A stretch of 64,000 nucleotides of DNA, taken from NCBI RefSeq assembly GCF_003129465.1, contig NZ_QFFF01000002.1, positions 248,001 through 312,000 on the forward strand, given 5' to 3'. Of the stretch, positions 25,020 through 46,396 are shown piece after piece. The notes below the pieces were generated by a model. The model worked only from the letters and a program-made list of their open reading frames with translations, was not told the DNA's origin and searched no databases. The stretch comes from Sphingosinicella humi (GTDB taxonomy: Bacteria; Pseudomonadota; Alphaproteobacteria; Sphingomonadales; Sphingomonadaceae). Made by a program: the position numbers and the translations under genes. Position 1 is the first letter of the stretch. Each line of letters opens with the position of its first letter.

Positions 25020-25613
25020 ATGATCCTCGTCATCGACAATTATGACAGCTTCACCTGGAACCTCGTCCATTATCTGCGCGAGCTTGGTACGGCGGTCGAG
25101 GTGGCGCGGAACGACGAAATCTCCGCCGCCGCGGCGCTCGCCAGCGACGCAAACGCATTTCTGATCTCGCCCGGGCCGGGGGCGCCCGAAGAGGCCGGAA
25201 TCTCCCTCGAATTGGTGCGGCTGTGCGCCGAGGCTCGCCGTCCGCTGCTTGGGGTCTGTCTCGGCCATCAGGCGATTGCCCACCATTTCGGCGGCAAGGT
25301 CGTCCGGGCGAAGCCGATGCACGGCAAGACATGCGCCGTGCGGCACGACGGGACGGGCGTCTTCGCCGGCCTCCCCTCCCCTTTTAGGGCGACGCGCTAT
25401 CATTCGCTGGCCGTGGCCGCGGACGCGCTACCCGACTCTCTTGCCGTCAACGCGACCGCCGAGGACGCGACCGTGCAGGGCCTTCGCCACCGCACGCTGC
25501 CGATCCACGGCGTCCAGTTCCACCCCGAGAGCATCGCCAGCGAATGCGGCCACGAACTGCTCGGAAATTTCCTACGCCTGGCGGCCGGCCCGGCGCTGGG
25601 GGTAGATGCTTGA
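25020..25613 (+). CDS. trpG: Anthranilate / aminodeoxychorismate synthase glutaminase subunit
   Basis: Class I glutamine amidotransferase that supplies ammonia to TrpE or PabB. The 197-residue protein has the start MILVIDNYDSFTWNLVHYL, the nucleophile loop LLGVCLGHQAIAHHFGG near residue 76, and the GVQFHPESIASE catalytic His/Glu near residue 168. In many sphingomonads trpE precedes and trpD and trpC follow this gene; here trpE is absent before it and lexA comes directly after. It may therefore serve folate synthesis as PabA, or pair with a distant TrpE. Confidence 0.9.
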   Translation: MILVIDNYDSFTWNLVHYLRELGTAVEVARNDEISAAAALASDANAFLISPGPGAPEEAGISLELVRLCAEARRPLLGVCLGHQAIAHHFGGKVVRAKPMHGKTCAVRHDGTGVFAGLPSPFRATRYHSLAVAADALPDSLAVNATAEDATVQGLRHRTLPIHGVQFHPESIASECGHELLGNFLRLAAGPALGVDA

Positions 25614-26992: not shown

Positions 26993-27118
26993 CTAAGCGC
27001 CCATGCCGATCAAGACCGCGAGCAGCGCGATCACGACCATGCCGATCATGATCTTGTTCGACGAGAACATCGAACCGCTTTCGAACTCTGCCTCGACCCT
27101 GTCCTTATTCTCGTCCAT
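26993..27118 (-). CDS. Small single-pass membrane protein
   Basis: A 41-residue protein: an acidic, charged N-terminus (MDENKDRVEAEFESGS) and one C-terminal transmembrane helix (IMIGMVVIALLAVLIGMGA). The ATG at 27118 is used because GAGGGGAG stands 6 nt before it; an ATG two codons upstream is possible but overlaps that site. It lies 113 bp downstream of the oxidase operon on the same strand. It could be an accessory oxidase subunit, as small one-helix subunits are usual in aa3/caa3 enzymes, but it has no recognisable subunit IV motif. Function unknown. Confidence 0.6.
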   Translation of the reverse strand: MDENKDRVEAEFESGSMFSSNKIMIGMVVIALLAVLIGMGA

Positions 27119-27230
27119 CGCCATCTCCCCTCGGGCGGAAGGCCCGATGCCTCGAGCGCACACCGGCGGACCAAACCTCCGGCGTCGGCAGTCAGAGGCG
27201 GCGCCATTATGCGCTCCGCCACCGATGCGA

Positions 27231-27641
27231 TCAATCCGGCTCGGTTTCTCTCGGTGGCGCGGTTCCCCCGAAAAGGGAATCATGACTCGCCGGCCTTTCT
27301 GGGATGAGCATGGCCGGCAGCCCCTGCCACAGCACGGCCAGGAAGGAGAGCAGGCAAAGCAGCCCGCCAGCCTTGCGCCAGAGGCCGGTGAGGTCCGCCT
27401 GCGGCGTCTCCCAGCGCGGCAGGCGTCCGGTCCAAAGGCCCCAGCCGATCCAGGCGATGGCGGCAAGGCAGATGAGCGTGGCCAGGCCGATCAGGAGGCG
27501 CGAGACGAGGCCCGCCTCCCAGGTCAGGGTGATGGCGAGGGTGGCGAGGGAATAGACCAGGCCGAGATGGGCCGACCAGATCAGCGGCCCGGCCAGGAGC
27601 ACCGACCATTTGGCAAGCGTATCGAGGCTCCGCCGCGGCAT
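27231..27641 (-). CDS. Four-helix membrane protein of the caa3 oxidase operon
   Basis: A 136-residue protein with about four hydrophobic segments (WSVLLAGPLIWSAHLGLVYS, LLIGLATLICLAAIAWIGWG, GLLCLLSFLAVLWQGLPAML) and a charged C-terminal tail. Its ATG overlaps the stop of the coxA/coxC fusion (TGATG), so translation is coupled and it should act with the oxidase. A PLIWSAHL motif with His in the first helix pair is the only notable residue pattern. No named family was recognised; it could assist assembly or be an accessory subunit. Confidence 0.75.
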   Translation of the reverse strand: MPRRSLDTLAKWSVLLAGPLIWSAHLGLVYSLATLAITLTWEAGLVSRLLIGLATLICLAAIAWIGWGLWTGRLPRWETPQADLTGLWRKAGGLLCLLSFLAVLWQGLPAMLIPERPASHDSLFGGTAPPRETEPD

Positions 27642-30193
27642 CAGGACACCAGCCTCGGGAAGCCGTGGGCGACGATCACGGTCACCGCCGCCTGGACGAT
27701 CGTGTAGCGCCACAAGAGCCTTGTCGTATCGAAGCTCAGCCGCCGCACATTATCGGTGCGCCCGACCAGGATGCGCGCCGCGACCAACCCGGCCATGAAG
27801 GTGATGGCGGCGAGGTTCTGGGCATTCAGAAAGCCGAGCGCGAAGGTGCTGGCGCCATAGCCGCTTTCGCTCGGCCAGAGACCGGTCCGCGTCCACAGCC
27901 AGATGTCGCCTCCGACGGCCGCGCCGAGGACCAACACGCCCGCTAGCAACGGCGCGACGACAGCCGCCTTGCCTCGTCCCTGCGTCAGCATCCGGTCGGC
28001 GATGGCCAGCAGGCCGGCGCTGCCTGCGAGGAGGAGGAGCGCGCCGCCCGTGTGGAGCAGTCCGGGAAGCCTCGTTCCCGGCGGGGGCCATCGGTCCGGC
28101 TGGACGCTCCAGAGATAGACATAGCTGAAGACCATGCAGGTGAAGATCATGCCGATGACGACGATCAGCACCCACACCGCCCAGATGGCGTGATTCTTGT
28201 TGCCGAGCATGTAGACGGGGAGTTTCAGCCCTCCGCCGACATCGACCGGGTCATGGTCCGGCCCCTGGTCGAGCTCCCACACCCAGCGCAGCATGGCGGC
28301 GATGGCGATGACGCCGCCGATCACCGCGACCAGCACCATCTTCACCGTCAGGGAGAGGAAGAAGACGGCGGTGAATACGGCCGCGACGACGTGCCACCAG
28401 CTGGGGCCGGGAATGATGACCAGATATTGCGGGATCGCCTTCAGCGGCGACGTCACGATCGTCTCCCGCCGGCGAGTCAACGCGCCCGGCAGGAACCATT
28501 GCCCCTTCTCGACCTGATCGCTGAGCTCGGGATTGTCCCACAGCGGCTCGCGGCTTTTCACGATCGGGATGCTGCGGGCGGCGTAGGAGCCGTTGGGCAG
28601 CCATTCCAGGGTGCCGCCGCCATAGACGTTGCCGGCATTCTCATCCTGCGTCATGCGGAACTTGAGCGCCATGTCGATCACGAAGAGCGCCACGCCGGCG
28701 CCGATGGTGAAGGCGCCCATCGTCGAGACGAGGTTGAGGCCGTCGAGGCCCATCTCCGGCAGATAGGTGTAGACCCGGCGCGGCATGCCGGCGAAGCCAG
28801 TCCAGTGCATCGGCAGGAAGGTGAGATGCATGCCGGTGAACATCAGCCAGAACACCCATTTTCCGACCCGCTCGGACAAGGCGAAGCGGCTCACCATCGG
28901 CACCCAGTAATAAATGGCGGCGAACAGCGGGAAGACCATGCCGCCGATGAGGACGTAGTGGAGGTGGGCGACCACGAAATAGGTGTCGTGCGCCTGCCAG
29001 TCGAAAGGCACCATCGCCACCATCACGCCGGTGAGCCCGCCCATGGTGAAGATGATGAGGAAGCCGACGGTGAAGAGCGTCGGCACATTCCATCGCGCCC
29101 GCTCCCCCGCCATGATGGTGGCGATCCAGGCGAAGACCTGGATGCCGGCCGGAATCGCCACCGCCATCGACGCGGCCGAGAAGAAGCCGGTGGAGATGGG
29201 CGGCAGGCCGGTGGTGAACATGTGGTGGACCCACAGGCCGAAGCTGATGAAGCCCGTAGCCACAAGAGCCGCGACGATCAGCCGATAGCCGACGAGCTTG
29301 GCCCGCGCGACGACCGGCACGATCATCGACATCATGCCGGCGGCGGGGATGAAGATGATATAGACTTCGGGATGGCCGAAGAACCAGAAGAGATGCTGCC
29401 AGAGCAGCGGGTCGCCGCCCTTCTCGGCGACGAAGAAGGGCCAGTGGAACGCCCGCTCCAGCTCCAGCAGGATGGTGCCGAGGATGATCGCCGGGAAGCC
29501 GACGATGATCATGCCGGCGAAGACCAGCATCGCCCAGCCGAACAGCGGCAGCTTGTCCAGGCTCATGCCGGGCGAGCGGGTCTTCAGCACGCCGACGACG
29601 ATCTCGATCGCGCCGGCAATGGCGGAAATCTCGATGAAGCCGATGCCGAGCAGCCACCAGTCCGCCTTGCTGTCCGGCGAATAGATGTAGCTGGTGAGCG
29701 GCGGATACATGAACCAGCCGCCGTCCGGCGACTGGCCAAAGAATATGGTGGTGAAGAAGACGAGACCGCCGACGAGATAGGCCCAGAAGGCGAAGGCGGA
29801 GAGCCGCGGGAAAGGCAGGTCGCGCGCCGCCAGCATCTGGGGCAGCAGCAGCACCCCCATCGCTTCCACCGCCGGGACCGCGAAGAGGAACATCATCACC
29901 GTGCCGTGCATGGTGAACAGCTGGTTGTAGGTGTCCTGGCCGACGATTTCGGCCATCGGCGTCGCCAGCTGGCTGCGCATCAGCAGCGCCAGGCAGCCGG
30001 CCAGCACGAAGAACAACAAGGCCGCCCCGACATAGGCGGCGCCCACGATATTGTTGTTGACCGCGGTCGGCAGCCGCCAGCCGGTCGGCTGGCGCCATAC
30101 CTCCTCCAATATCTTCAGCTCCTCCTCCGGCCGCGGCCGCGGGTCCGGCAGGTTCTTCGCAGCGGCGCGGAAGGCGGCTTCCTCGTCCGTCAT
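27641..30193 (-). CDS. coxA: caa3-type cytochrome c oxidase subunit I/III fusion
   Basis: Catalytic core of a haem-copper oxidase that reduces O2 to water and pumps protons. The 850-residue protein joins subunit I (residues about 30-590) to a subunit III-like helical region (about 600-850), as in Thermus caa3. Haem a and a3/CuB ligands are visible: H96 (TMHGTVM), H274 with cross-linked Y278 in GHPEVY, H323/H324 (WVHHMF), H410 and H412 (VAHLHY). The D-channel entry D125 (RDLPFPRL) is present, but the usual Asn pair is replaced by Ser-Ala. Its start overlaps the coxB stop (ATGA). Confidence 0.94.
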   Translation of the reverse strand: MTDEEAAFRAAAKNLPDPRPRPEEELKILEEVWRQPTGWRLPTAVNNNIVGAAYVGAALLFFVLAGCLALLMRSQLATPMAEIVGQDTYNQLFTMHGTVMMFLFAVPAVEAMGVLLLPQMLAARDLPFPRLSAFAFWAYLVGGLVFFTTIFFGQSPDGGWFMYPPLTSYIYSPDSKADWWLLGIGFIEISAIAGAIEIVVGVLKTRSPGMSLDKLPLFGWAMLVFAGMIIVGFPAIILGTILLELERAFHWPFFVAEKGGDPLLWQHLFWFFGHPEVYIIFIPAAGMMSMIVPVVARAKLVGYRLIVAALVATGFISFGLWVHHMFTTGLPPISTGFFSAASMAVAIPAGIQVFAWIATIMAGERARWNVPTLFTVGFLIIFTMGGLTGVMVAMVPFDWQAHDTYFVVAHLHYVLIGGMVFPLFAAIYYWVPMVSRFALSERVGKWVFWLMFTGMHLTFLPMHWTGFAGMPRRVYTYLPEMGLDGLNLVSTMGAFTIGAGVALFVIDMALKFRMTQDENAGNVYGGGTLEWLPNGSYAARSIPIVKSREPLWDNPELSDQVEKGQWFLPGALTRRRETIVTSPLKAIPQYLVIIPGPSWWHVVAAVFTAVFFLSLTVKMVLVAVIGGVIAIAAMLRWVWELDQGPDHDPVDVGGGLKLPVYMLGNKNHAIWAVWVLIVVIGMIFTCMVFSYVYLWSVQPDRWPPPGTRLPGLLHTGGALLLLAGSAGLLAIADRMLTQGRGKAAVVAPLLAGVLVLGAAVGGDIWLWTRTGLWPSESGYGASTFALGFLNAQNLAAITFMAGLVAARILVGRTDNVRRLSFDTTRLLWRYTIVQAAVTVIVAHGFPRLVS

Positions 30194-31119
30194 TCAAGGC
30201 GGTCCATATAGGTGACGAGGGCTCTCAGCTCCTTGGCGGAGAGGCCGGAATAAGCGGGCATTTTGACGCCGGGCTTCAGCCGCTGCGGGTTGGCGGTCCA
30301 GCCTCCGAGCGTGCCCTTGTTGTTGGGGAGGATTCCGGCACCGAGATGCAGGCGGGACGCGACATGGGTGAGATCGGGGCCGGCCAGCCCCCTCGCCGGC
30401 GTGCCGCGCACCTGGTGGCAGCCACCGCAGCCCAAAGTTCGAAACAGCGCCGCGCCTTCGGCGGCGAGCGGCTCCGAAGGCGGCAAGGCCGGTCCCGCCT
30501 CGCGCCTCAGCCAGACTGCATAGTCGGCCGGCGACAGCGCGCGCACGCGGAACAGCATGAGGGCGTGCGGGCCTCCGCAATATTCGGCGCAGGCGCCGTA
30601 ATAGACGCCCGGCTTTGCGGCGAGGAGGCGAATGCGGTTGGTCTTGCCGGGGATCATGTCGAGCTTGCCCGCCAGCTCCGGCACCCAGAAGCTGTGGATG
30701 ACATTGTCCGAAGCGAGGTCGATCAGCGCGGGCCGGCCGGCCGGGATGACGATCTCGTTGGCGGAGGCGAAGCGTTCGGGTTCCAGATATTCGACCCGCC
30801 ACCACCATTGCTCGCCCGTCACATGGATGCGGACCGGGTCGGCGTCCTCGGTGCCGACCAGGCCGGCCGTGAGACCGAGGCCGTAGGTGAGGAGGCCCGT
30901 CAGGGTGACGACGGGAAAAAGGACGCCGCCGATGATCACCATCTTTTCGCCGGCGATCCTCCGCCGCCACGCCCCGCCGAACAGGGCTATGCTGAGGGCC
31001 ACGAGGACGATGAGGAGAATGACTCCCCCGCCGACGATCAGCACCCAGCTCAAAGTGGTGATCGGATCGCCCTGAGGTCCGGATGTGTCGAGCGCAAGGG
31101 GCAACCCGTTCCCGCTCAT
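30190..31119 (-). CDS. coxB: caa3-type oxidase subunit II with fused cytochrome c domain
   Basis: Electron entry subunit of the oxidase. The 309-residue protein has two transmembrane helices, a cupredoxin domain with the CuA ligands H142, C177, E179, C181, H185 and M188 (CAEYCGGPHALM), and a C-terminal class I cytochrome c domain with CGGCH at residues 231-235 and the likely axial Met in KMPAY. This marks a caa3 enzyme. The frame is open to 31296, into actA, but ATG 31119 (or GTG 31125) is preferred: it gives a normal N-terminus and leaves room for the promoter at 31172-31196. No signal peptide is obvious. Confidence 0.9.
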   Translation of the reverse strand: MSGNGLPLALDTSGPQGDPITTLSWVLIVGGGVILLIVLVALSIALFGGAWRRRIAGEKMVIIGGVLFPVVTLTGLLTYGLGLTAGLVGTEDADPVRIHVTGEQWWWRVEYLEPERFASANEIVIPAGRPALIDLASDNVIHSFWVPELAGKLDMIPGKTNRIRLLAAKPGVYYGACAEYCGGPHALMLFRVRALSPADYAVWLRREAGPALPPSEPLAAEGAALFRTLGCGGCHQVRGTPARGLAGPDLTHVASRLHLGAGILPNNKGTLGGWTANPQRLKPGVKMPAYSGLSAKELRALVTYMDRLE

Positions 31120-31171
31120 CCGCACGATAGCTTGGCCGGCAAGCTCGCCTCCCTGTGGCTCCCCCGCCTTC

Positions 31172-31196
31172 AACCGATCCGCCGCCGGCTCGTTCC
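31172..31196 (-). promoter_or_regulatory. EcfG-like promoter facing the oxidase operon
   Basis: On the minus strand GGAAC (31196-31192), a 16-nt spacer, then GGTT (31175-31172): one base from the EcfG consensus CGTT. The start of transcription would be near 31165, 46 nt before the coxB ATG. It is only 22 bp from the perfect motif facing actA. Confidence 0.5.
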
Positions 31197-31217
31197 ACAG
31201 CCGTTTCTTAGCCGAGC

Positions 31218-31242
31218 GGAACGCCTCCGGAATGTCTTCGTT
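31218..31242 (+). promoter_or_regulatory. EcfG-type general stress promoter of the act operon
   Basis: GGAAC at 31218-31222, a 16-nt spacer, and CGTT at 31239-31242 exactly match the EcfG consensus. Transcription would start near 31249, about 26 nt before the actA ATG. No other clear promoter was seen in the gap. Confidence 0.72.
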
Positions 31243-31274
31243 GGGAGACGGGAGCTGACGGCGATGGGCGACGC

Positions 31275-31997
31275 ATGGCGCAGATTTTTTCGGCACGGAC
31301 GGACCGCCTGCTCAGACGGCTCCTCCTCGCCCTGCCGCTGCTGTTCGTCCTTCTCCTCGGGATCGGCTTCTACCAGTTCCGCTCCGACGCTCATTGGGGC
31401 GTCGGCAGGACGGCCGAGCAGCCGATCGGCTTCCGCCACGACCTCCATGTGCGGGAACTCGGCCTCGACTGCGCCTTCTGCCATGGCGGTGCCGCGCGAG
31501 CGGCCGCGGCGGGCATGCCGTCGGCGAGCGCCTGCCTCGTCTGTCATTCCCAGCTCTGGCGCGGCGTGGACGCGCTGCGACCGCTGTTCACCAGCGTCGA
31601 GCTCGGCCAGCCGATCGAGTGGAAGTCGCTCTATCGCCTTCCCGAGCACACGCGCTTTCATCACGGCGCCCATGCCGCGTCCGGCATCGGCTGTGCCGCC
31701 TGCCACGGCGACGTGGCGACGATGGTGAAGACCGAAAAGGCCGAGCCGCTGTCGATGGCCTGGTGCCTCGATTGCCATCGGCAGGTGGGCGAGCGCGGGC
31801 AGCAGAATCGCACAGCAGCCCTAACCCCTCTTCGTCATTCCCGCGAAAGCGGGAATCCCGCTTCTTCTCTTCCCGAAGCAAGGCAAGAGCAGCGGGACTC
31901 CCGCTTTCGCGGGAGCGACGGATCAGGTGTCCTGGCTGCCGAGGATGTCGCTTTCGCCAATCCCCGCCTCACCGATTGCTCGACCTGTCACTACTGA
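31275..31997 (+). CDS. actA: Alternative complex III pentahaem cytochrome subunit ActA
   Basis: Membrane-anchored multihaem cytochrome c that carries electrons out of alternative complex III. The 240-residue protein has one N-terminal helix (LLLALPLLFVLLLGIGFYQF) and five CxxCH haem sites: 66-70, 87-91, 140-144, 164-168 and 235-239. Five haems is the expected ActA number. Between haems 4 and 5, residues about 187-217 (RHSRESGNPASS onwards) are encoded by an in-frame palindromic repeat (31833-31920), which is not part of the family. It ends TGATG with actB. The Shine-Dalgarno sequence is weak. Confidence 0.92.
   Translation: MAQIFSARTDRLLRRLLLALPLLFVLLLGIGFYQFRSDAHWGVGRTAEQPIGFRHDLHVRELGLDCAFCHGGAARAAAAGMPSASACLVCHSQLWRGVDALRPLFTSVELGQPIEWKSLYRLPEHTRFHHGAHAASGIGCAACHGDVATMVKTEKAEPLSMAWCLDCHRQVGERGQQNRTAALTPLRHSRESGNPASSLPEARQEQRDSRFRGSDGSGVLAAEDVAFANPRLTDCSTCHY
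31833..31920. repeat. Palindromic repeat, family B, inserted in frame in actA
   Basis: Arms 31833-31860 and 31893-31920 are 28 bp each with three mismatches, beginning CGTCATTCCCGCGAAAGCGG. Each arm has an internal CCCGC-GAAA-GCGGG hairpin. The same arms occur between glmU and glmS (46301-46385). It adds about 30 residues to ActA without breaking the frame. Confidence 0.92.
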
Positions 31998-34708
31998 TGA
32001 GCGGCGACACAAAAGCGGGTCTCTGGCGCGGCATCGGCGATTTGACGGCCGATCGCATCGAGTCCTGTCTCGAGGCCGAATTCCCCGCCCTCCACCGGAT
32101 GGGGATGATGGACCGGCGCGACCTGATGCGGCTGATGGGCGCATCGCTGGCGCTGGCGGGGCTCACCGCCTGCGAGAAGCGGCAGCCGCCGCTGCTGTCC
32201 CAGCCCTTCAGCCCGGAAGGGCATGTCGCCGGACAGCCGCTCTACTTCGCCACCTCGCTTCCGCTCGACGGCTATGGCCGCGGCGTGCTGGTCAAGTCGC
32301 ATGACGGGCGGCCGATCAAGATCGAAGGCAACCCGCTCCACCCCGCCAGCCTCGGCGCGACCGACCCGTTCATGCAGGCCGAGATATTGTCGCTCTACGA
32401 TCCGGATCGCTCGCGCACGCCCCGGCGGGGCGACGAGCCGATGCCCTGGAGCGCGCTCCGCCGCTTCCTTACCGAGCAGCGGACCGAAATGGCGAGCGAT
32501 GGCGGGCAAGGCACGCACGTCCTGTTCGGCGCCACCTCCTCGCCCACCCTCGCCGGATTGATCGATCGGCTGCGCTCCCTATACCCGGCCATGCGTTTCC
32601 ACAGCTATTCGCCGGTCAGCGATCTCTTGGCGGCCCCGGAGCTGATCTACCGCCTCGACCGCGCCGACGTCGTGCTCAGCCTTGGCGCGGATTTCCTGGG
32701 CCCGGGGCCTGCCCAGGTCCGCTATGCCCGCGATTGGAAAGAGGCCCGCCCACGCCTCATCGTCATTGAATCGACGCCCACCCTCACCGGCGCCCAGGCC
32801 GACCAACGCCTGCCCCTCGCCCCCCACGCCATCGAGGCGCTGGCGGCCGAGCTCGCCGCCGGCCGCGGGCCGCCGAACGTAGTGCAAGCCCTCTCGGCAG
32901 GACGCGCGATGGTGCTCGCCGGCCGCGACCAGTCTCCGGCCGTGCAGGCGCTGACCCATCGCCTCAACTCGCAGCTCGGCGCCTATGGCAATGGAATTGT
33001 CGCCATCGCGCCGGTGCGGCTCGCTCAGCCGGAGGGGATCGAGCCGCTCGATGCTCTGGTCGCGGAGATGGCGGCAGGACGGGTGCGGCGGCTGGCGGTG
33101 CTCGACTGCAATCCCGGTTATGACGCGCCGGCGGACTTCGCCTTCGACGAACTGATGACCCATGTCCCGGTCTCGATCCATCTCGGCCTTGGCCATGACG
33201 AGACGGCGCGGGTCTGCCGCTGGCATGTGCCGATGCGCCATGTTCTCGAAAGCTGGGGCGACCTTCGCGCCTATGACGGCACCGTCGGCCTCCAGCAGCC
33301 GGCGACGGTGCCGCTCGTTCCCGCGCTAAGCTCGATCGAACTGCTCGCCGCGCTGGCCGGGGACCGCCCCGACGGCGGCGCCCTGGTGCGGCGCCAATGG
33401 AATGGCCTCGCCGAAGAGCCGTGGCTCCGCGCGCTCGAAGCAGGCGTGATTTCCGGGACGCAGGCCGCGACCACCGCGCCCCCGTCTCCGCCTCCTGCGC
33501 CCTCGACCAGGCCCGTCGGGCTGACCCTGACCTTCCAGCCCGACCCGCGGATGTGGGACGGCCGTTTTGCGAACAATGCCTGGCTCCAGGAACTGCCGAG
33601 CCCGCTCACCAAGCTCGTCTGGGGCAATGCCGCGCTGATCGCGCCCGCGACGGCGGCACGGCTTGGCTTGGAGAGCGGAGACAAGGTCGAAATCGCCCAT
33701 CGCGGCGCGAGCATGACCGCGCCCGTCTGGGTGATGCCGGGCCAGGCGGCGGACGTCGTCACCCTGCCGCTCGGCCATGGCCGCCGCTCCGCTGGCCGGG
33801 TGGGAACCAGGATCGGTGTCGACGCCTTCCGCCTCCGCCCGGCCGACGCTCCTTGGGTCGTTGCCGGCGTGGACGTGCGCAAGGTGCCCGGCCAGGCGCG
33901 CCTCGTCAGCACACAGCGTCATCACCCCATCGCCGACCCGGGGGCCATTCGCACCGCCGAGGCGGGCGCGGAGGACTTGCCCAGCCTCTATCCCGACTAT
34001 CCGTCGCTCGGCCACGTCTGGGGCATGGTGATCGACACCGACGCCTGCATCGGCTGCGGCGCGTGCACCATCGCCTGCCAGGCGGAAAACAATATCCCCG
34101 TGGTCGGACCGGACGAAGTGGAGCGCGGGCGCGAGATGCACTGGATCCGGGTCGACCGCTATCACGAGGGACCGGTCGAAGCGCCAGAGACGCACTTCCA
34201 GCCCGTCCCCTGCATGCATTGCGAGAAGGCGCCCTGCGAGGTGGTCTGTCCCGTCGGCGCCACCGTCCATTCGGCGGAAGGCCTCAACCAGATGGTCTAT
34301 AATCGCTGCATCGGCACGCGGACCTGCTCCAACAACTGCCCCTACAAGGTCCGCCGTTTCAACTGGTTCGACTATCAGTCCGAAGCGCCCGCCACGCCCG
34401 CGCCGGCCAACAATCCGCGCGTCACCGTCCGCGACCGCGGCGTCATGGAAAAATGCACCTATTGCGTGCAGCGCATCAACGCCGTCCGCGCCGAGGCAAA
34501 GGTGGAAGGCCGCGATATCCGCGATGGAGACGTCCAAACCGCCTGCCAGCAGGTTTGTCCCACCCAGGCTATCGTCTTCGGTGATCTCAACGATCCGAAC
34601 AGCGAAGTCGCCCGCCTCCGCCGCAACGGCCGCAACTACGCGCTGCTCGGCAATCTCGGCACCCGGCCGCGCACCACCTATCTCGCGCGGGTGAGGCGGC
34701 GGACATGA
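31997..34708 (+). CDS. actB: Alternative complex III molybdopterin-like/iron-sulfur subunit ActB
   Basis: Large peripheral subunit. The 903-residue protein has a Tat-like signal (MDRRDLMRLMGASLALAGLTAC, split here as RR at residues 40-41), a domain resembling molybdopterin oxidoreductases (about 65-640) that in known ACIII lacks the cofactor, and a four-cluster ferredoxin domain: CIGCGACTIACQ near 684, CMHCEKAPCEVVCP near 738, CIGTRTCSNNCP near 771, and CTYCVQRI near 819 with CQQVCP. The ATG at 31997 overlaps the actA stop; the frame stays open further upstream but out of register with known protein. It ends ATGA with actC. Confidence 0.94.
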   Translation: MSGDTKAGLWRGIGDLTADRIESCLEAEFPALHRMGMMDRRDLMRLMGASLALAGLTACEKRQPPLLSQPFSPEGHVAGQPLYFATSLPLDGYGRGVLVKSHDGRPIKIEGNPLHPASLGATDPFMQAEILSLYDPDRSRTPRRGDEPMPWSALRRFLTEQRTEMASDGGQGTHVLFGATSSPTLAGLIDRLRSLYPAMRFHSYSPVSDLLAAPELIYRLDRADVVLSLGADFLGPGPAQVRYARDWKEARPRLIVIESTPTLTGAQADQRLPLAPHAIEALAAELAAGRGPPNVVQALSAGRAMVLAGRDQSPAVQALTHRLNSQLGAYGNGIVAIAPVRLAQPEGIEPLDALVAEMAAGRVRRLAVLDCNPGYDAPADFAFDELMTHVPVSIHLGLGHDETARVCRWHVPMRHVLESWGDLRAYDGTVGLQQPATVPLVPALSSIELLAALAGDRPDGGALVRRQWNGLAEEPWLRALEAGVISGTQAATTAPPSPPPAPSTRPVGLTLTFQPDPRMWDGRFANNAWLQELPSPLTKLVWGNAALIAPATAARLGLESGDKVEIAHRGASMTAPVWVMPGQAADVVTLPLGHGRRSAGRVGTRIGVDAFRLRPADAPWVVAGVDVRKVPGQARLVSTQRHHPIADPGAIRTAEAGAEDLPSLYPDYPSLGHVWGMVIDTDACIGCGACTIACQAENNIPVVGPDEVERGREMHWIRVDRYHEGPVEAPETHFQPVPCMHCEKAPCEVVCPVGATVHSAEGLNQMVYNRCIGTRTCSNNCPYKVRRFNWFDYQSEAPATPAPANNPRVTVRDRGVMEKCTYCVQRINAVRAEAKVEGRDIRDGDVQTACQQVCPTQAIVFGDLNDPNSEVARLRRNGRNYALLGNLGTRPRTTYLARVRRRT

Positions 34709-36006
34709 TCGCGCCGATCCAGAACCCGCCGATCGACCATGTCATCGATCCGCCTCTGGCCGAGCGCTTCGGCCGGACCTGGTGGATCGGGATCGGCGTG
34801 GCGCTGCTCGGCGTCCTGTTCCTCCTTTACGGCCTTCGCGGTCCCGCCTTTGTCGGCATCGGCGTCTGGGGAACGAATATCCCCTATGTCTGGGGCTTCG
34901 ACATCGCCAGCTACGCCTGGTGGATCGGCATCGCCAATGGCGCTGCGCTTTTCGCCTCGATCCTGGTGCTGACCGGCAGCAGCCTCCACACCGCCGTCAA
35001 CCGCTTCGCCAACGGCCTTGCCCTCGGCGCCGCCATTTGCGCCGCCGTCTTTCCCGTCTTCCACCTCGGCCGGCCCTGGCTCGCTTACTGGATGATCCCC
35101 TATCCGACGGCCCAGGGCGTCTGGCCCCAGTTCCGGAGCCCGCTGACCTGGGACTTCTGGGCAATATTGACGCACCTCACCGCCATTGCCCTGCTCTGGT
35201 ATGTCGGCCTCATCCCCGATCTCGCCACCCTGCGCGACCGGGCAAAGACGCGGACGCGGCAGCTCTTCTACGGCCTCGCCGCGCTCGGCTGGCGCGGATC
35301 GGCGCGGCAATGGGCGCTCCACCGCCGCGCGCACCGCATCGTCGCCTTGACCCTCATCCCCCTCCTCTTCCTGGCCCAGGCGATCGTCTCGTTCGAGTTC
35401 GTAGGAACCCTGGTTCCCGACTGGCACGAGACGCGCCAGCCGCTCCATTTCATCGCCACCGGAATCCAGCTCGGCATCGCGATGGTGCTGCTCGTCGCTC
35501 TGGCGCTCCGCCGCCGGCTGGGGCTCCACCGGCATATCGACGATTGGGATATCGACCTCCTCGCCAAGCTGCTCCTCGCCAACGCCCTGGTCACCGCCTA
35601 CGCCTATCTGGACGGCTGGTTCATGGAGTTGATGGCCGAACCGCCCATCCGCGAGGCGTTGCTGGCGCGAATGGCAGGGCCTTACGGAACGCTCTATTGG
35701 GGCGGGTTCATGCTCTCCGTCCTGCCGCCGCAGATTTTCTGGTGGCGCCGGGTTCGCCTCCATTGGTGGGCCGGCGCGACCGTGGCGGCGCTCGTGCTGA
35801 TCGGCATCTATCTCGACTATCTGTCGGTGGTGGTCGGCGGACTGGTTCGCACCAATCTGATGATCGCCGCGCCCACCTATGCGCCTACCGTCGCCGAAGT
35901 CTCGCTGCTGGCGGGGACGCTTGGCCTGTTCCTCCTGATGGTGCTGCTCTCGGTCCGGCGGCTGCCGATCGTCAGCCTCTACGACACACGGGCGGAACCG
36001 GCATGA
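34705..36006 (+). CDS. actC: Alternative complex III membrane subunit ActC (NrfD family)
   Basis: Integral membrane subunit of the NrfD/PsrC family, thought to hold the quinol-oxidation site of ACIII. The 433-residue protein has about ten hydrophobic helices; FDIASYAWWIGIANGAAL and FHLGRPWLAYWMIPYPTAQ carry residues typical of the family. The N-terminus (NPPIDHVIDPPL) matches ActC-type starts. Both ends overlap neighbours by ATGA (actB, actD), so the operon is tightly coupled. Confidence 0.94.
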   Translation: MIAPIQNPPIDHVIDPPLAERFGRTWWIGIGVALLGVLFLLYGLRGPAFVGIGVWGTNIPYVWGFDIASYAWWIGIANGAALFASILVLTGSSLHTAVNRFANGLALGAAICAAVFPVFHLGRPWLAYWMIPYPTAQGVWPQFRSPLTWDFWAILTHLTAIALLWYVGLIPDLATLRDRAKTRTRQLFYGLAALGWRGSARQWALHRRAHRIVALTLIPLLFLAQAIVSFEFVGTLVPDWHETRQPLHFIATGIQLGIAMVLLVALALRRRLGLHRHIDDWDIDLLAKLLLANALVTAYAYLDGWFMELMAEPPIREALLARMAGPYGTLYWGGFMLSVLPPQIFWWRRVRLHWWAGATVAALVLIGIYLDYLSVVVGGLVRTNLMIAAPTYAPTVAEVSLLAGTLGLFLLMVLLSVRRLPIVSLYDTRAEPA

Positions 36007-36521
36007 CCGGCCTTATCGCCCGCTTCCGCTCGCCGGCCGAGCTGGTGGAGGCCGTTCGCCGCCTCCGCGACCAGGGCTACCGCCGCCTCGACGCCTTCAC
36101 TCCCTATCCCTTGCCCGAACTGACCGAGTTGCTGGGCGGATCGACGTCCCGCATCGGCTGGATCGCCGCGCTTTCGGCGCTCGCCGGAGGCGCCCTCACC
36201 TATGCCGTCATCTATTGGACGGCGGTCGTCGATTACCCGCTCAATATCGGCGGGCGGCCGCTGCACAGCTGGCAAGCCTTTCTTCCCGCCGCCTTGGTAT
36301 CGGCCGCGCTCTGGTCGGGGCTCGCCACCTTGATCGGCATGCTCTGGCTCGGCGGCCTGCCGCGCTGGCACCATCGGCTGTTCGACCTGAAGGGTTTCGA
36401 CCGGGCGACCTACGATCGCTATTTCCTGCTGGTCGAGGACGATCCCGCCTTCGAGGCGAGCGAGACGCGGCGGCTCCTCGAAAGCCTCTCGCCCGAACAT
36501 ATCGAGGCACTCGGGCCATGA
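36003..36521 (+). CDS. actD: Alternative complex III subunit ActD (DUF3341)
   Basis: A 172-residue protein with two transmembrane helices (ALSALAGGALTYAVIYWTAV and AALVSAALWSGLATLIGMLW) between cytosolic ends. The N-terminal VRRLRDQGYRRLDAFTPYPL and the DYPLNIGGRPLHSWQAFLP loop are hallmarks of the DUF3341/ActD family. It has no cofactor motif; in solved ACIII structures ActD is a peripheral membrane subunit. It starts and ends with ATGA overlaps. Confidence 0.92.
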   Translation: MTGLIARFRSPAELVEAVRRLRDQGYRRLDAFTPYPLPELTELLGGSTSRIGWIAALSALAGGALTYAVIYWTAVVDYPLNIGGRPLHSWQAFLPAALVSAALWSGLATLIGMLWLGGLPRWHHRLFDLKGFDRATYDRYFLLVEDDPAFEASETRRLLESLSPEHIEALGP

Positions 36522-36967
36522 GGTGGGCCATCCTCCTCCTGCTGATCCCGGCCGCCTGCGGGGACGAGCCGGATCGGGGCTATGCCGCAACGGCGGGCGG
36601 CGCCCGGCAGGAGCCCTATACGGCCATTCCGCCCGGAAGCGTTCCGCGCGGCGCCGCCGCCCGCCGTGCCGAGCTCGCCCCGCCTGGCCCGCCCGTCACC
36701 CCCGCCCTGATCGCGGCCGGCGCGAAAGCCTATCAGGGCTATTGCGCCCCTTGCCATGGCGCTTCCGGCCGCGGCGACGGACCGGTGACGCAAACGGGCT
36801 TCCCGCGCTCCCCGCCGCTCGGGGCAGGCGCCCACTCCCCCGAACAAATCGTCGCCATCATCGGCAGAGGGCAAGGAACGATGCCGCCCTTGGCCGAGCA
36901 GGTCCCGCTGCGCGCCCGCTGGGCCATCGCTTCCTATCTGACGCGGGAGAGCGGCGGTGCCGACTAG
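36518..36967 (+). CDS. actE: Alternative complex III monohaem cytochrome c lipoprotein ActE
   Basis: A 149-residue exported lipoprotein: short signal with lipobox LIPAAC (Cys14), a Pro/Ala-rich linker, and a class I cytochrome c domain with CAPCH at residues 76-80 and a likely axial Met in GTMPPLAEQ. In ACIII, ActE passes electrons from ActA to the acceptor. The ATG overlaps the actD stop by ATGA; the stop lies 11 bp inside actF. Confidence 0.92.
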   Translation: MRWAILLLLIPAACGDEPDRGYAATAGGARQEPYTAIPPGSVPRGAAARRAELAPPGPPVTPALIAAGAKAYQGYCAPCHGASGRGDGPVTQTGFPRSPPLGAGAHSPEQIVAIIGRGQGTMPPLAEQVPLRARWAIASYLTRESGGAD

Positions 36968-37931
36968 CCCGACCCTCGCCGAAGCCTGGCTGCTCGCAGT
37001 CGTCATCGTCGCCGGCCTCGCTGTCGGCAGCCTCGGCCTGTTGATGATCGGCCGCCTGCTTGGTCGCGACTGGGTGACGCCGATGGACGACGAGCTCGAG
37101 CCCGCCGCCTACACCATCCCGCTCGTCGCCATTCTTGCCCTCCCTCTCGCCTTCCAAAGCTTCTATGCCTGGGACGGCGCGGCCGCCCTCGCCGATAGCC
37201 ATCCCCGGCTGAGCGGCTGGTTCGAGCGCGACCTCATCCTGCTTCGCTCGCTGGGCTATTTCCTTCTCTGGAGCGCCCTCGCCTGGCTGGCCGCCGCCAG
37301 GCCGAAGGCGCATGGCTGGAACGCGGCAGGCCTGTTGCTGCTGCTGCCGACCGTCGGCCTCGCCGGATTGGATTGGGTGCTGACGCGCCAGCCCTTCTGG
37401 TGGACCAGCCTGTTCGGCTTCGCCTTCGCGGTGAGCCAGCTCCCCGCCGCGCTCGCCCTCGCATTCCTGGCCAACACCCTCCAGCGCGAGCATGTCGGCC
37501 ACGCGCATGATCGCAGCCTGGTCAGCGCCCTGCTCGTCCTGGCGCTGCTGACCCTGTGGCTCTGGTTCACTCAATATCTCGCCGCCTTCATGGGCAATCT
37601 CCCGGCGGAGGCCGCCTGGTACCAGGCGCGCCTGGTGGATGGCCGCTGGATACCGCTCGCGCTCGCGGCGGGTCTGCTCGGGGGTGCCATCCTGCTGCTA
37701 GTCCAGGGCCATCGCGGCCGTTGGGTCGTGCTTGTGGCGAGCGGCCTCATCCTCGCCCAGCATTTCTTTCACATGGGCTGGCTGCTCCGCCCTGCCGGAA
37801 CGCCCGCCCTCGGGCTCCTCGACCTGCTGGCGCTGGTCCTGATCGGCGGCGTTTGGGGCCTCGCCTGGTTGCTGCTGATGCGCCGCCACGACGCACGGCG
37901 CCGTCAATTGGGCGGGACCGGCTCCTCATAG
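36957..37931 (+). CDS. actF: Alternative complex III membrane subunit ActF
   Basis: A 324-residue integral membrane protein with about nine to ten helices and no cofactor motif, in the position and size range of ActF, the ActC-related subunit of ACIII. It starts with GTG at 36957, inside the end of actE. Hydrophobic helices include SALLVLALLTLWLWFTQYLA; the FMGNLPAEAAWYQAR loop is typical. Its last 28 bp overlap the stop end of a cytochrome c gene on the opposite strand. Confidence 0.88.
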   Translation: MPTSPTLAEAWLLAVVIVAGLAVGSLGLLMIGRLLGRDWVTPMDDELEPAAYTIPLVAILALPLAFQSFYAWDGAAALADSHPRLSGWFERDLILLRSLGYFLLWSALAWLAAARPKAHGWNAAGLLLLLPTVGLAGLDWVLTRQPFWWTSLFGFAFAVSQLPAALALAFLANTLQREHVGHAHDRSLVSALLVLALLTLWLWFTQYLAAFMGNLPAEAAWYQARLVDGRWIPLALAAGLLGGAILLLVQGHRGRWVVLVASGLILAQHFFHMGWLLRPAGTPALGLLDLLALVLIGGVWGLAWLLLMRRHDARRRQLGGTGSS

Positions 37932-38374
37932 CGCTCACGATCCAGCGGCACGTCGGGGGGCCAGATCCTCTGCTCGTCCGCCTGCAAGCTGTAGAGATAG
38001 GCGGCGATGTCACGCGCGTCGCCGGGGCTCACGTCCATGTCGGGCATGCCCGTCGCCGGGATCAGCGCCGGCGGGTCGACAAGCCAGGCGATCAACGTCG
38101 CCGGCCGGTTGGGAAGCTGCCCGGCGAGCAGCGCCCGCTCGCCGAAATGGTCGAGCGGCGGCCCTACCAGGCCCTCCGCCCCCGGCACGCCCGGCACCCG
38201 GTGGCAGGAGCCGCAGCCGTAGCGCAGGATCGCCGCATGGCCGCGCTCCGCATCGGCCCCGGCGATCTTCAGATGGTCCGGCGTTTCCGCCCGCCCGCAG
38301 CCGGCGAGCAGCAGGACGAATCCGATCGCCCGCACCGCCGGTTGCCAGGAGCTTCGAGTAATGCCTTCGCTCAC
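37904..38374 (-). CDS. Cytochrome c lipoprotein convergent with the act operon
   Basis: A 156-residue exported monohaem cytochrome c: lipobox LLLAGC (Cys26), CGSCH at residues 54-58 and a likely axial Met in ATGMPDM. It resembles cytochromes that shuttle electrons between a quinol-oxidising complex and a terminal oxidase. A GTG at 38374 gives a sensible signal peptide; the frame is open upstream without coding sense. It lies between actF and ctaG but on the opposite strand. It may be the soluble-side partner of ACIII or caa3 (inference). Confidence 0.82.
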   Translation of the reverse strand: MSEGITRSSWQPAVRAIGFVLLLAGCGRAETPDHLKIAGADAERGHAAILRYGCGSCHRVPGVPGAEGLVGPPLDHFGERALLAGQLPNRPATLIAWLVDPPALIPATGMPDMDVSPGDARDIAAYLYSLQADEQRIWPPDVPLDRERYEEPVPPN

Positions 38375-38437
38375 CTCTGCAGGAACCCTCCGCCAGGGCA
38401 ATGGTTCACGGCACGGGAGCCGGATACAAGAGGGGGA

Positions 38438-39349
38438 ATGACTCGCGCGCCATCGATCCGCGGTATCGCCCGAACGCCAAGGCTCGCTCCGGTGGTGGCC
38501 GCCGCGCTCGCCGCCGGTCCGGCCTCGGCCCATGCCGACCACGCCATCGCACCCGATCATGTGTGGACGGCATGGACCTTCGATCCGCTGGTCCTCATTC
38601 CCCTCCTCCTGGCGCTGTGGCTCTACATCCGCGGCCGAAGGTGCCTGCCGGCCGCGCGTCGGCGCGCCGCCGAAGCTTGGTCCTTCCTTGCCGGCATAAT
38701 CGTTCTCGTTTTGGCGCTCGTCTCGCCGATCGACGCCCTCGGCGAGACGCTGCTCAGCTTCCATATGGTTCAGCATATGCTGCTCGTCGCCGTCGCGCCG
38801 CCCCTGCTGCTGCTCGGCCGGCCCGGGACCGCGTTCATCGCCGCGCTTCCGGGCGGCACCATTCCGGGCCTCGCCAGCCACCCCGTGTCGCGCCCTCTCG
38901 TCCGCGGGTTGATTTTCCTGACCGGCCTCGTCCCCGCCACACTTCTCCATGCGGTGGCGCTCTGGCTCTGGCACGTCCCGCTCCTGTTCGAAGCCGCGCT
39001 CCTCGACGAGTGGGTCCACACGCTGGAGCATTTCAGCTTCTTCGCCACCGCCCTTCTCTTCTGGTTCGCGGTGCTCGCCGCCGGACGGGTGCAGCGCACG
39101 GCGCCGTCCGGCGCCCTCGCCGCCTTCGTCACCTTCCTCCACAGCGGCATGCTGGGCGGCATCCTCAGCCTCGCGCCGGCGCCGCTCTATCCCGCCTATG
39201 GCGATCGCCCCGCGCTCTGGGGCCTCGGCCTTCTCGCCGACCAGCAGCTCGCCGGCGCCATCATGTGGGTGCCGATCGGCCCCGCCTATCTTGCCGCCGC
39301 GCTGTGGCTGCTCTTCAAAATACTGAACACCCGTGACGCCCGCGTCTGA
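38438..39349 (+). CDS. ctaG: CtaG-type caa3 oxidase assembly factor
   Basis: A 303-residue multi-helix membrane protein of the caa3_CtaG family (the Bacillus-type CtaG, unrelated to Cox11), needed for caa3 oxidase assembly. Typical segments are SFHMVQHMLLVAVAPPLLLL, LHAVALWLWHVPLLFEAAL and MLGGILSLAPAPLYPAYG, with several conserved His. The N-terminus has a signal-like ALAAGPASAHADH. ATG at 38438 follows AGGGGG. It supports that the neighbouring oxidase is of caa3 type. Confidence 0.92.
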   Translation: MTRAPSIRGIARTPRLAPVVAAALAAGPASAHADHAIAPDHVWTAWTFDPLVLIPLLLALWLYIRGRRCLPAARRRAAEAWSFLAGIIVLVLALVSPIDALGETLLSFHMVQHMLLVAVAPPLLLLGRPGTAFIAALPGGTIPGLASHPVSRPLVRGLIFLTGLVPATLLHAVALWLWHVPLLFEAALLDEWVHTLEHFSFFATALLFWFAVLAAGRVQRTAPSGALAAFVTFLHSGMLGGILSLAPAPLYPAYGDRPALWGLGLLADQQLAGAIMWVPIGPAYLAAALWLLFKILNTRDARV

Positions 39350-46282: not shown

Positions 46283-46300
46283 GCAGTCGTTCCACCCTCA

Positions 46301-46385
46301 CGTCATTCCCGCGAAAGCGGGAATCCATTCCGATTATGAGCCGAGCTCCGGCGCCGCCTGGATTCCCGCTTTCGCGGGAATGACG
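46301..46385. repeat. Palindromic repeat, family B, between glmU and glmS
   Basis: Perfect 27-bp arms 46301-46327 and 46359-46385, beginning CGTCATTCCCGCGAAAGCGG, around a 31-bp centre. The transcript would form a long hairpin between the two cistrons. A related copy sits inside actA (31833-31920). Confidence 0.93.
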
Positions 46386-46396
46386 GGTGGAGCCCC

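Follow-up and report, generated by a model that had tools for sequence, protein, structure and literature searches.

The window analysed here is the 64-kb stretch from 248001 to 312000 of contig C2 of Sphingosinicella humi, whose genome of 3.03 Mb consists of four contigs. Between its positions 26993 and 39349 lies an island that encodes the six subunits of alternative complex III (ACIII), a CoxB, a CoxA-CoxC fusion, CtaG and an additional cytochrome c. Judged by its sequence, the island is a true and complete ACIII with an adjoining caa3-like oxidase, and it is not of the usual sphingomonad type. It falls in a clade of its own, marked by an A1 fusion oxidase and by changes at proton-route residues. 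The clade is referred to as clade M, a name coined here for 39 distinct islands among the best 80 of 204 relatives that were used from an ActC scan of named genomes. In the residue counts that follow, these 39 islands give 40 clade rows, and 50 distinct islands of the canonical type give 52 canonical rows.

The minus strand carries a small open reading frame (ORF), a 160-amino-acid ORF, coxAC and coxB, and the plus strand carries actA to actF and ctaG, with the gene for the additional cytochrome c on the minus strand between actF and ctaG (Table 1). All frames of the island are open. CxxCH heme motifs number five in ActA and one each in ActE, CoxB and the additional cytochrome c. The act genes overlap by 1 nucleotide between actA and actB, with the actB start chosen here, by 4 nucleotides at each of the next three junctions (B-C, C-D and D-E) and by 11 between actE and actF; the 4-bp or 11-bp overlaps of the original prediction hold for all of these junctions except the first. 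At their 3' ends, actF and the cytochrome c gene on the opposite strand share 28 nucleotides.

Table 1. Features of the ACIII-oxidase island, in window coordinates
Feature	Position	Strand	Basis
ORF of 43 amino acids, single hydrophobic stretch, beside oxidase genes	26993..27124	-	ORF list, family searches
Hydrophobic ORF of 160 amino acids after coxAC	27231..27713	-	ORF list, relatives search
coxA-coxC fusion, 850 amino acids, A1-type (GHPEVY, Glu276), Gln352 at the K-channel lysine position	27641..30193	-	COX1 family, profile
coxB, CuA subunit II with C-terminal cytochrome c	30190..31119	-	CuA ligands, one CxxCH, family match
actA, pentaheme cytochrome c	31275..31997	+	five CxxCH
Palindromic repeat element in frame within actA, between heme 4 and heme 5	31833..31920	+	repeat search
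actB, Fe-S subunit, lipoprotein-type N-terminus (by eye)	31997..34708	+	family, cysteines, solved chains
actC, NrfD-like subunit that binds quinol, most proton-path residues replaced	34705..36006	+	PF03916, fold, alignment
actD	36003..36521	+	PF11821; Val99 (codon at 36297) at the conserved Glu122 position
actE, monoheme cytochrome c, lipobox-like N-terminus (by eye)	36518..36967	+	one heme motif
actF, second NrfD-like subunit, Trp at the conserved Tyr284 position	36957..37931	+	ActF profile, predicted fold
Monoheme cytochrome c with lipobox	37904..38386	-	one CxxCH, LLAGC
ctaG, caa3-type oxidase assembly factor	38438..39349	+	PF09678

The subunits are recognizable individually. The iron-sulfur (Fe-S) part of ActB has 15 cysteines that are invariant across eight ActBs, and all of them are found in the window and in 39 of 39 clade relatives, which is the number required for three [4Fe-4S] clusters and one [3Fe-4S] cluster. 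ActC is an NrfD-like protein (PF03916), ActD matches PF11821 with an E value of 8e-47, and CtaG matches PF09678. ActF has no Pfam match above the cut-off; a profile built from eight ActFs finds the ActF chains of four solved ACIIIs, and its predicted model, with a mean predicted local distance difference test (pLDDT) value of 91, matches the ActF chains of solved ACIIIs first, at template modelling (TM) scores of 0.77-0.83. The predicted ActC model (mean pLDDT 78) matches four ActC chains at a TM score of 0.88. The trees described below contain ACIII sequences alone; the distinction from other families comes from matches to solved chains. The nearest of these for ActB are the ActBs of four ACIIIs (402-786 bits), with other families following at 89 and 79 bits, and those for ActC are likewise ACIII chains, far ahead of other families. 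The solved complexes of Rhodothermus marinus (6F0K), Flavobacterium johnsoniae (6BTM), Roseiflexus (6LOD) and Chloroflexus (8K9E) have in common with the window the subunit set, the pentaheme ActA, the Fe-S cysteines, the His/Ser/Asp of the quinol site, the ActB sequence and the ActC and ActF folds. The family matches together with the order of the six genes rule out chance, and the predicted content of six ACIII subunits, coxB, a coxA/coxC fusion and ctaG is borne out by families, motifs, profiles and folds.

Two related families were considered in the place of ACIII. A polysulfide or tetrathionate reductase (PsrBC/TtrBC), the grouping of ActB and ActC that would have spoken against the original prediction, is rejected by the nearest solved chains just described and by the TtrB model, which scores 71.7 bits against a cut-off of 416. 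The other is a cytochrome c:quinone reductase working in the reverse direction, like the menaquinone reductase QrcABCD. ActA and ActB do match Qrc models, but the NCBIfam equivalog models for QrcA, QrcB and QrcC all score under their cut-offs (67.5 against 180, 73.9 against 440 and 219 against 400 bits), and the window has ActD, ActE, ActF and an adjoining oxidase, whereas Qrc lacks these three subunits and runs in the opposite direction (PMC13059093). We regard this possibility as very remote.

The oxidase genes set the island apart from its canonical counterparts. The C-terminal third of CoxAC has no Pfam COX3 match, and a six-member profile made from it finds COX3 chains with a best E value of 6e-7. 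The A1 glutamate (GHPEV) is found in the window and in 36 of 36 clade rows, representing 35 distinct islands, whereas canonical islands have alanine at this site in 43 of 43 rows (41 distinct), in the A2 form YSHPAV. The motif YSHPXV, which we take to be that of A2 COX1 and which belongs to COX subtype a-I, is replaced by GHPEVY in the window. The features of COX type a are all there, namely the A1 motif, COX3 fused to COX1, and Caa3_CtaG nearby. In the literature, act genes have been tied to A2 oxidases of subtype a-I and COX1-3 fusions have been described as type a (Degli Esposti; PMC6431628, PMC4013037), and the oxidases linked to act genes are usually A2 (PMC6431628). By its motifs, then, the window joins act genes with a type a A1 COX1-3 fusion. 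No description of ACIII with an A1 fusion oxidase, or of loss of the coupling triad discussed below, appeared in the titles and abstract openings searched, a literature with few subscription journals.

That the island is simply the ordinary ACIII of sphingomonads and Bradyrhizobium with an A2 oxidase has next to no chance of being right. Islands of that kind are present in the family, with 11 canonical sphingomonad examples among the genomes sampled, and those of Bradyrhizobium, Sphingomonas changbaiensis and S. horti have the same act order and adjoining coxB and coxA as the window. Their oxidase, however, is of the A2 form, without such a CoxA-CoxC fusion, and their proton-path residues are complete, and the ordinary type is rejected by the oxidase motif and by the ActC and ActB trees, which split the two clades with full support.

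A second change in the oxidase concerns its K-channel. The K-channel lysine is replaced by glutamine (Gln352, with CoxA sites in what we take to be the Paracoccus numbering) in the window and throughout the clade rows (36 of 36). Glutamine is also present in all 24 fusion oxidases for which no act run was seen nearby, although four of these loci have flanks of only 1.5 kb and two consist of short contigs (about 6 kb), where absence of act genes is not established. In view of these 24 oxidases and of K-channel variants already recorded (PMC8239418), the idea that loss of this lysine co-evolved with ACIII was dropped from the main claim. Alphaproteobacterial loci of COX operon type a, in which a COX1-3 fusion is accompanied by Caa3_CtaG, share the fused CoxA-CoxC and the glutamine with the window, and many have a CtaG-like gene near; they differ in having no act run nearby, with single weak matches (21-32 bits) in seven of 20 loci, two of which are the contigs of about 6 kb among the 20 examined. 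Fusion oxidases that have act genes nearby and those that do not are interleaved in the CoxAC tree. One locus from a genome of the same family, L180 of G103, groups coxAC and coxB with a similar cytochrome c gene and a ctaG-like gene but has no act genes, an arrangement that fits either loss of act genes or a state before they joined.

The most extensive differences are found in the residues proposed to move protons. A quinol site and two half-channels in ActC were proposed by Sousa et al. in 2018, together with a triad, Glu122 of ActD, Ser245 of ActC and Tyr284 of ActF, that is 98-100% conserved and would couple quinol oxidation with proton movement (PMC5928083). Calisto and Pereira in 2021 listed ActC residues that are more than 95% conserved in 521 sequences (PMC8076601). 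The listed residues were mapped by alignment to the R. marinus chains; ActD and ActF give fewer rows, being missing or truncated in some loci. The triad is absent from the window, which has Val, Leu and Trp in its place, and as a proposed functional feature (PMC5928083) it does not define the family. ActD Glu122 is invariant among the canonical rows (51 of 51) and has given way to Ile or Leu throughout the clade (39 of 39 rows); ActF Tyr284, kept in 47 of 47 canonical rows, is Trp in all 39 clade rows; and ActC Ser245, Ser in 52 of 52 canonical rows, is another residue in 37 of 40 clade rows. The quinol-site residues His139, Ser164 and Asp169 of ActC are kept in the window and in every clade (40) and canonical (52) row. 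The other proposed channel residues of ActF are variable in canonical rows also.

Within ActC, clade M has replaced His97 by Asn (40 of 40 rows), Thr100 by Ser (38), Ser103 by Ala (40), Thr125 by Ala (39), Tyr176 by His (40), Ser180 by Thr (38), His247 by Gln (40), Tyr270 by His (37) and Glu394 by Asp (38), and Glu338 is not Glu in 39. It keeps Arg114, Arg119, Glu122, Asp191, Arg196, Asp197 and Arg395 in all 40 rows, Glu450 in 39, Glu326 in 37 and Tyr323 in 34. Asp253 is Glu in 38 clade rows and in the window (Glu231), and is Leu in 28 of the 52 canonical rows, which otherwise keep the listed residues with the exceptions of His97 (3 rows with Asn), Asp197 (2 with Glu) and Glu338 (11 with Asp and 1 with Gly). 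The window goes beyond its clade at Thr100 (Ala), Arg114 (His), Glu122 (Asn), Ser180 (Ile), Glu326 (Gly), Glu338 (Ile) and Arg395 (Tyr). Compared with the solved ACIIIs, it has thus replaced the whole triad and most of the ActC proton path, and its partner is an A1 fusion; that of the R. marinus complex is presumably an A2 oxidase. A column test was made with the 118 columns whose conservation in canonical ActC reaches 95% or more. Of the 19 proton-path columns among them the window retains 5, compared with 68 of the 96 others (Fisher p 0.0004), and with polar columns as the control the figures are 5 of 19 and 10 of 14 (p 0.015). On this alignment evidence the case for a targeted loss is strong as regards the window and the triad, and weak where the ActC path of the clade as a whole is concerned. 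The best reading would be that the proposed pump is either lost or rewired.

Clade M is well delimited. It forms one side of a branch in the ActC tree (54 rows; support 100/100), in a second ActC tree (100/99) and in the ActB tree (39 rows, 17 of clade M), where the Shimodaira-Hasegawa-like approximate likelihood ratio test (SH-aLRT) gives 100. The ActC tree contains 25 of the 39 islands, and the remaining 14, all from Microvirga, were assigned by match scores and site pattern. The members are found in Microvirga, Roseomonas and relatives (Neoroseomonas among them), a Rhizobiales strain, metagenome-assembled genomes of Hyphomicrobiaceae and Rhodospirillales, and Pacificimonas, and their ActCs are 46-56% identical to that of the window (17 aligned). 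They share with it the replaced triad (three retain Ser245), the A1 CoxA-CoxC fusion and the lipoprotein cytochrome c; ActC Arg114, Glu122 and Arg395 are retained in the clade and lost in the window. The window is sister to Pacificimonas flava in the ActC (99/98) and CoxAC (96) trees, with CoxAC proteins 68% identical; it is not so in the ActB tree, where Pacificimonas sits on a very long branch. P. flava (G210) has two islands about 22 kb apart, one a canonical ACIII-A2 (L025) and the other a clade M ACIII-A1 (L026). Gene order was rejected as a mark of the clade, since the Microvirga islands are collinear whereas those of the window and Pacificimonas are divergent, as are 2 of the 11 canonical sphingomonad islands.

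The island is sparsely distributed around its host. ActC is present in one of 26 genomes of the genus, that of the window itself. ActD is found in 13 of 298 family genomes and in 5 of 385 genomes of the class. One of the 13, G086, has no other act gene near its match (E 1e-6; L035) and was left out of the island count. In the class, the four genomes besides the host's own have Glu at the position of ActD Glu122. A 398-genome sample of the phylum has 33 with ActC at E values up to 1e-20, none except the host's own above 42% identity. A plasmid origin was rejected, the best of 19 plasmid records that match ActC being no more than 43% identical. Around mug, 24 loci of other genus genomes (up to 1.5 kb per side) yielded no empty site that could be named; among the genes of the window, only the neighbor ech was seen beside mug there, in two loci (L045, L049). 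The tree comparison of ActB and ActC suggested with the original prediction as a check for transfer has revealed a separate clade; together with the patchy distribution it fits transfer or repeated loss, and no donor can be named.

The same phylum sample bears on how the residues were lost. Loci were obtained for 29 of the 32 ActC matches from other genomes, and 28 of these deviate at no more than two of 25 listed sites; one of the 29, G280, was counted in the canonical rows as well. The remaining locus, L206 of G839, has an ActC that deviates at 12 of the 25 sites, including Arg395 to His. ActC and ActD of G839 are apparently in one reading frame (L206/L226), and inspection of the translation by eye shows a residue other than Glu at the position of ActD Glu122. 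The oxidase partner in G839 is nevertheless A2. Its ActC is sister to clade M in the tree (99/97), on a long branch; of two alternative groupings, both named post hoc after inspection of the tree, the test rejects the one with L199 alone (p 0.00015) but not the one that adds three sphingomonads to L199 (p 0.20). Should this placement be correct, the residues were lost before the oxidase was exchanged.

The ACIII of the island was predicted to act in addition to, or instead of, the bc1 complex. The genome has a complete bc1 (petABC), whose genes for the Rieske protein, cytochrome b and cytochrome c1 are consecutive, and six matches to the heme-copper oxidase family: coxAC, three CoxA-type oxidases that retain the A1 motif and the K-channel lysine, one cbb3 and one qNor-like. 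There is also one cytochrome bd subunit I. With bc1 complete and other oxidases present, ACIII is an additional branch of the respiratory chain and not a replacement. The additional cytochrome c at 37904-38386, for which the original prediction had suggested the role of a mobile carrier, has the lipobox LLAGC, and lipobox-like N-termini are seen by eye in 11 of 11 relatives, which speaks against that role; the protein is most likely tethered to the membrane. A relative of this gene stands next to actF or the oxidase in most related islands, and the protein may bridge ACIII and the oxidase.

Taken together, these features point to a quinol-to-oxygen module working alongside bc1. Quinol, which from the lineage would be ubiquinol, would be oxidized at the periplasmic face of ActC, and by analogy with known ACIIIs its electrons would pass through the Fe-S clusters of ActB and the hemes of ActA and ActE to the cytochrome c domain of CoxB, with or without the tethered lipoprotein cytochrome c as an intermediate, and from there to the A1-type CoxA-CoxC oxidase. 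The complement of subunits, redox ligands and quinol-site residues is plainly there in the encoded proteins, and redox competence is well supported by it. We further infer that this ACIII does not pump by the route proposed through ActC, ActD and ActF, for which the chances appear about even. The protons of quinol would then be released to the periplasm and most of the charge translocation left to the oxidase, such that energy yield would be traded for flux. For the reading as a whole, a redox-competent module beside bc1 that does not pump by the proposed route, we see the balance as lying close to the midpoint. More tentative, with the chances somewhat against it, is the wider proposal that this alphaproteobacterial branch has turned into a non-pumping quinol oxidase module, with this strain showing the most complete loss, and that residue loss possibly came before the swap from an A2 to an A1 partner, because G839 has similar losses yet an A2 partner.

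Several points weigh against the absence of pumping. According to a 2026 paper, pumping by any ACIII has itself not been confirmed experimentally (PMC13059093). The substitutes are fixed in the clade, as Asn97, His176, Gln247, mostly His270 and Asp394, which suggests rewiring; the clade relatives retain ActC Arg114, Glu122 and Arg395; and the clade consensus keeps 10 of 19 proton-path columns and 71 of 96 others, an enrichment of replacements that is not significant (p 0.096; polar control p 0.16). The window and Pacificimonas are on long ActC branches, so that the changes confined to the window are possibly in part drift. In Qrc, Arg358, the equivalent of Arg395, is non-essential, its replacement barely affecting growth and leaving about half of the activity in vitro with an H+/e- of 0.8 (PMC13059093). 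Residues of the Qrc cytoplasmic proton path are by contrast essential, Tyr150 among them (PMC13059093). Tyr150 is probably the equivalent of ActC Tyr176, the site that is His in 40 of 40 clade rows, as both stand 12 residues past a shared serine, though the comparison is only suggestive, since Qrc takes up cytoplasmic protons for quinone reduction and ACIII works in the opposite direction.

It is a serious possibility, if on balance a doubtful one, that the complex pumps as proposed for other ACIIIs, through an equivalent hydrogen-bond path rewired in ActC and ActF. The often protonatable character of the fixed substitutions (Y176H, Y270H, E394D, H247Q, H97N), the arginines and acidic residues that the clade keeps in 40 of 40 rows and the non-significant column test are what such a path would predict. 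The triad positions are harder to reconcile with it, being Ile or Leu in ActD and Trp in ActF throughout the clade (39 of 39 each), and the window is in addition without Arg114, Glu122, Glu326, Glu338 and Arg395.

The drift just mentioned could also be taken further, to an island that decays in this strain and no longer yields an active ACIII. The ActC branch is long (0.78), residues kept in 40 of 40 clade rows are lost, only one of 26 genus genomes has the island, and a palindromic repeat lies in frame within actA. This element has 33-nucleotide arms that are 88% complementary, and the spacing of heme 4 and heme 5 around it is 71 residues compared with 35-67 in the rows of 86 relatives. A copy stands at 46296-46390, and its half-site has 16 matches genome-wide, many as close inverted pairs, and none in the control. 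Against decay, all frames are open and the act genes still overlap, the heme motifs (five), the Fe-S cysteines (15) and the residues of the CuA and quinol sites are retained, and CoxAC remains 68% identical to that of Pacificimonas. We consider decay improbable.

Two small ORFs lie beside the oxidase genes. That of 43 amino acids has no family above the cut-off in family searches; that of 160 amino acids has no family match in the same searches, and its weak relatives (11-36 bits) adjoin coxAC in part of the related islands. Elsewhere in the window, a gene at 25020-25613 that we presume from its sequence to be trpG-like lies between a SurA/PpiD-like ORF and lexA.

Clade M is a little-noticed branch of ACIII. 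In it ACIII can pair with an A1 oxidase, against the usual A2 linkage in the literature (PMC6431628). With the proposed coupling residues replaced in 39 sampled islands and the redox machinery kept, the branch offers a natural test of energy conservation by ACIII, and comparison of clade M with canonical ACIII, both of which occur in one genome in Pacificimonas flava, makes the pumping model testable. If the loss of the proposed route is real, the branch would be a natural uncoupled ACIII.

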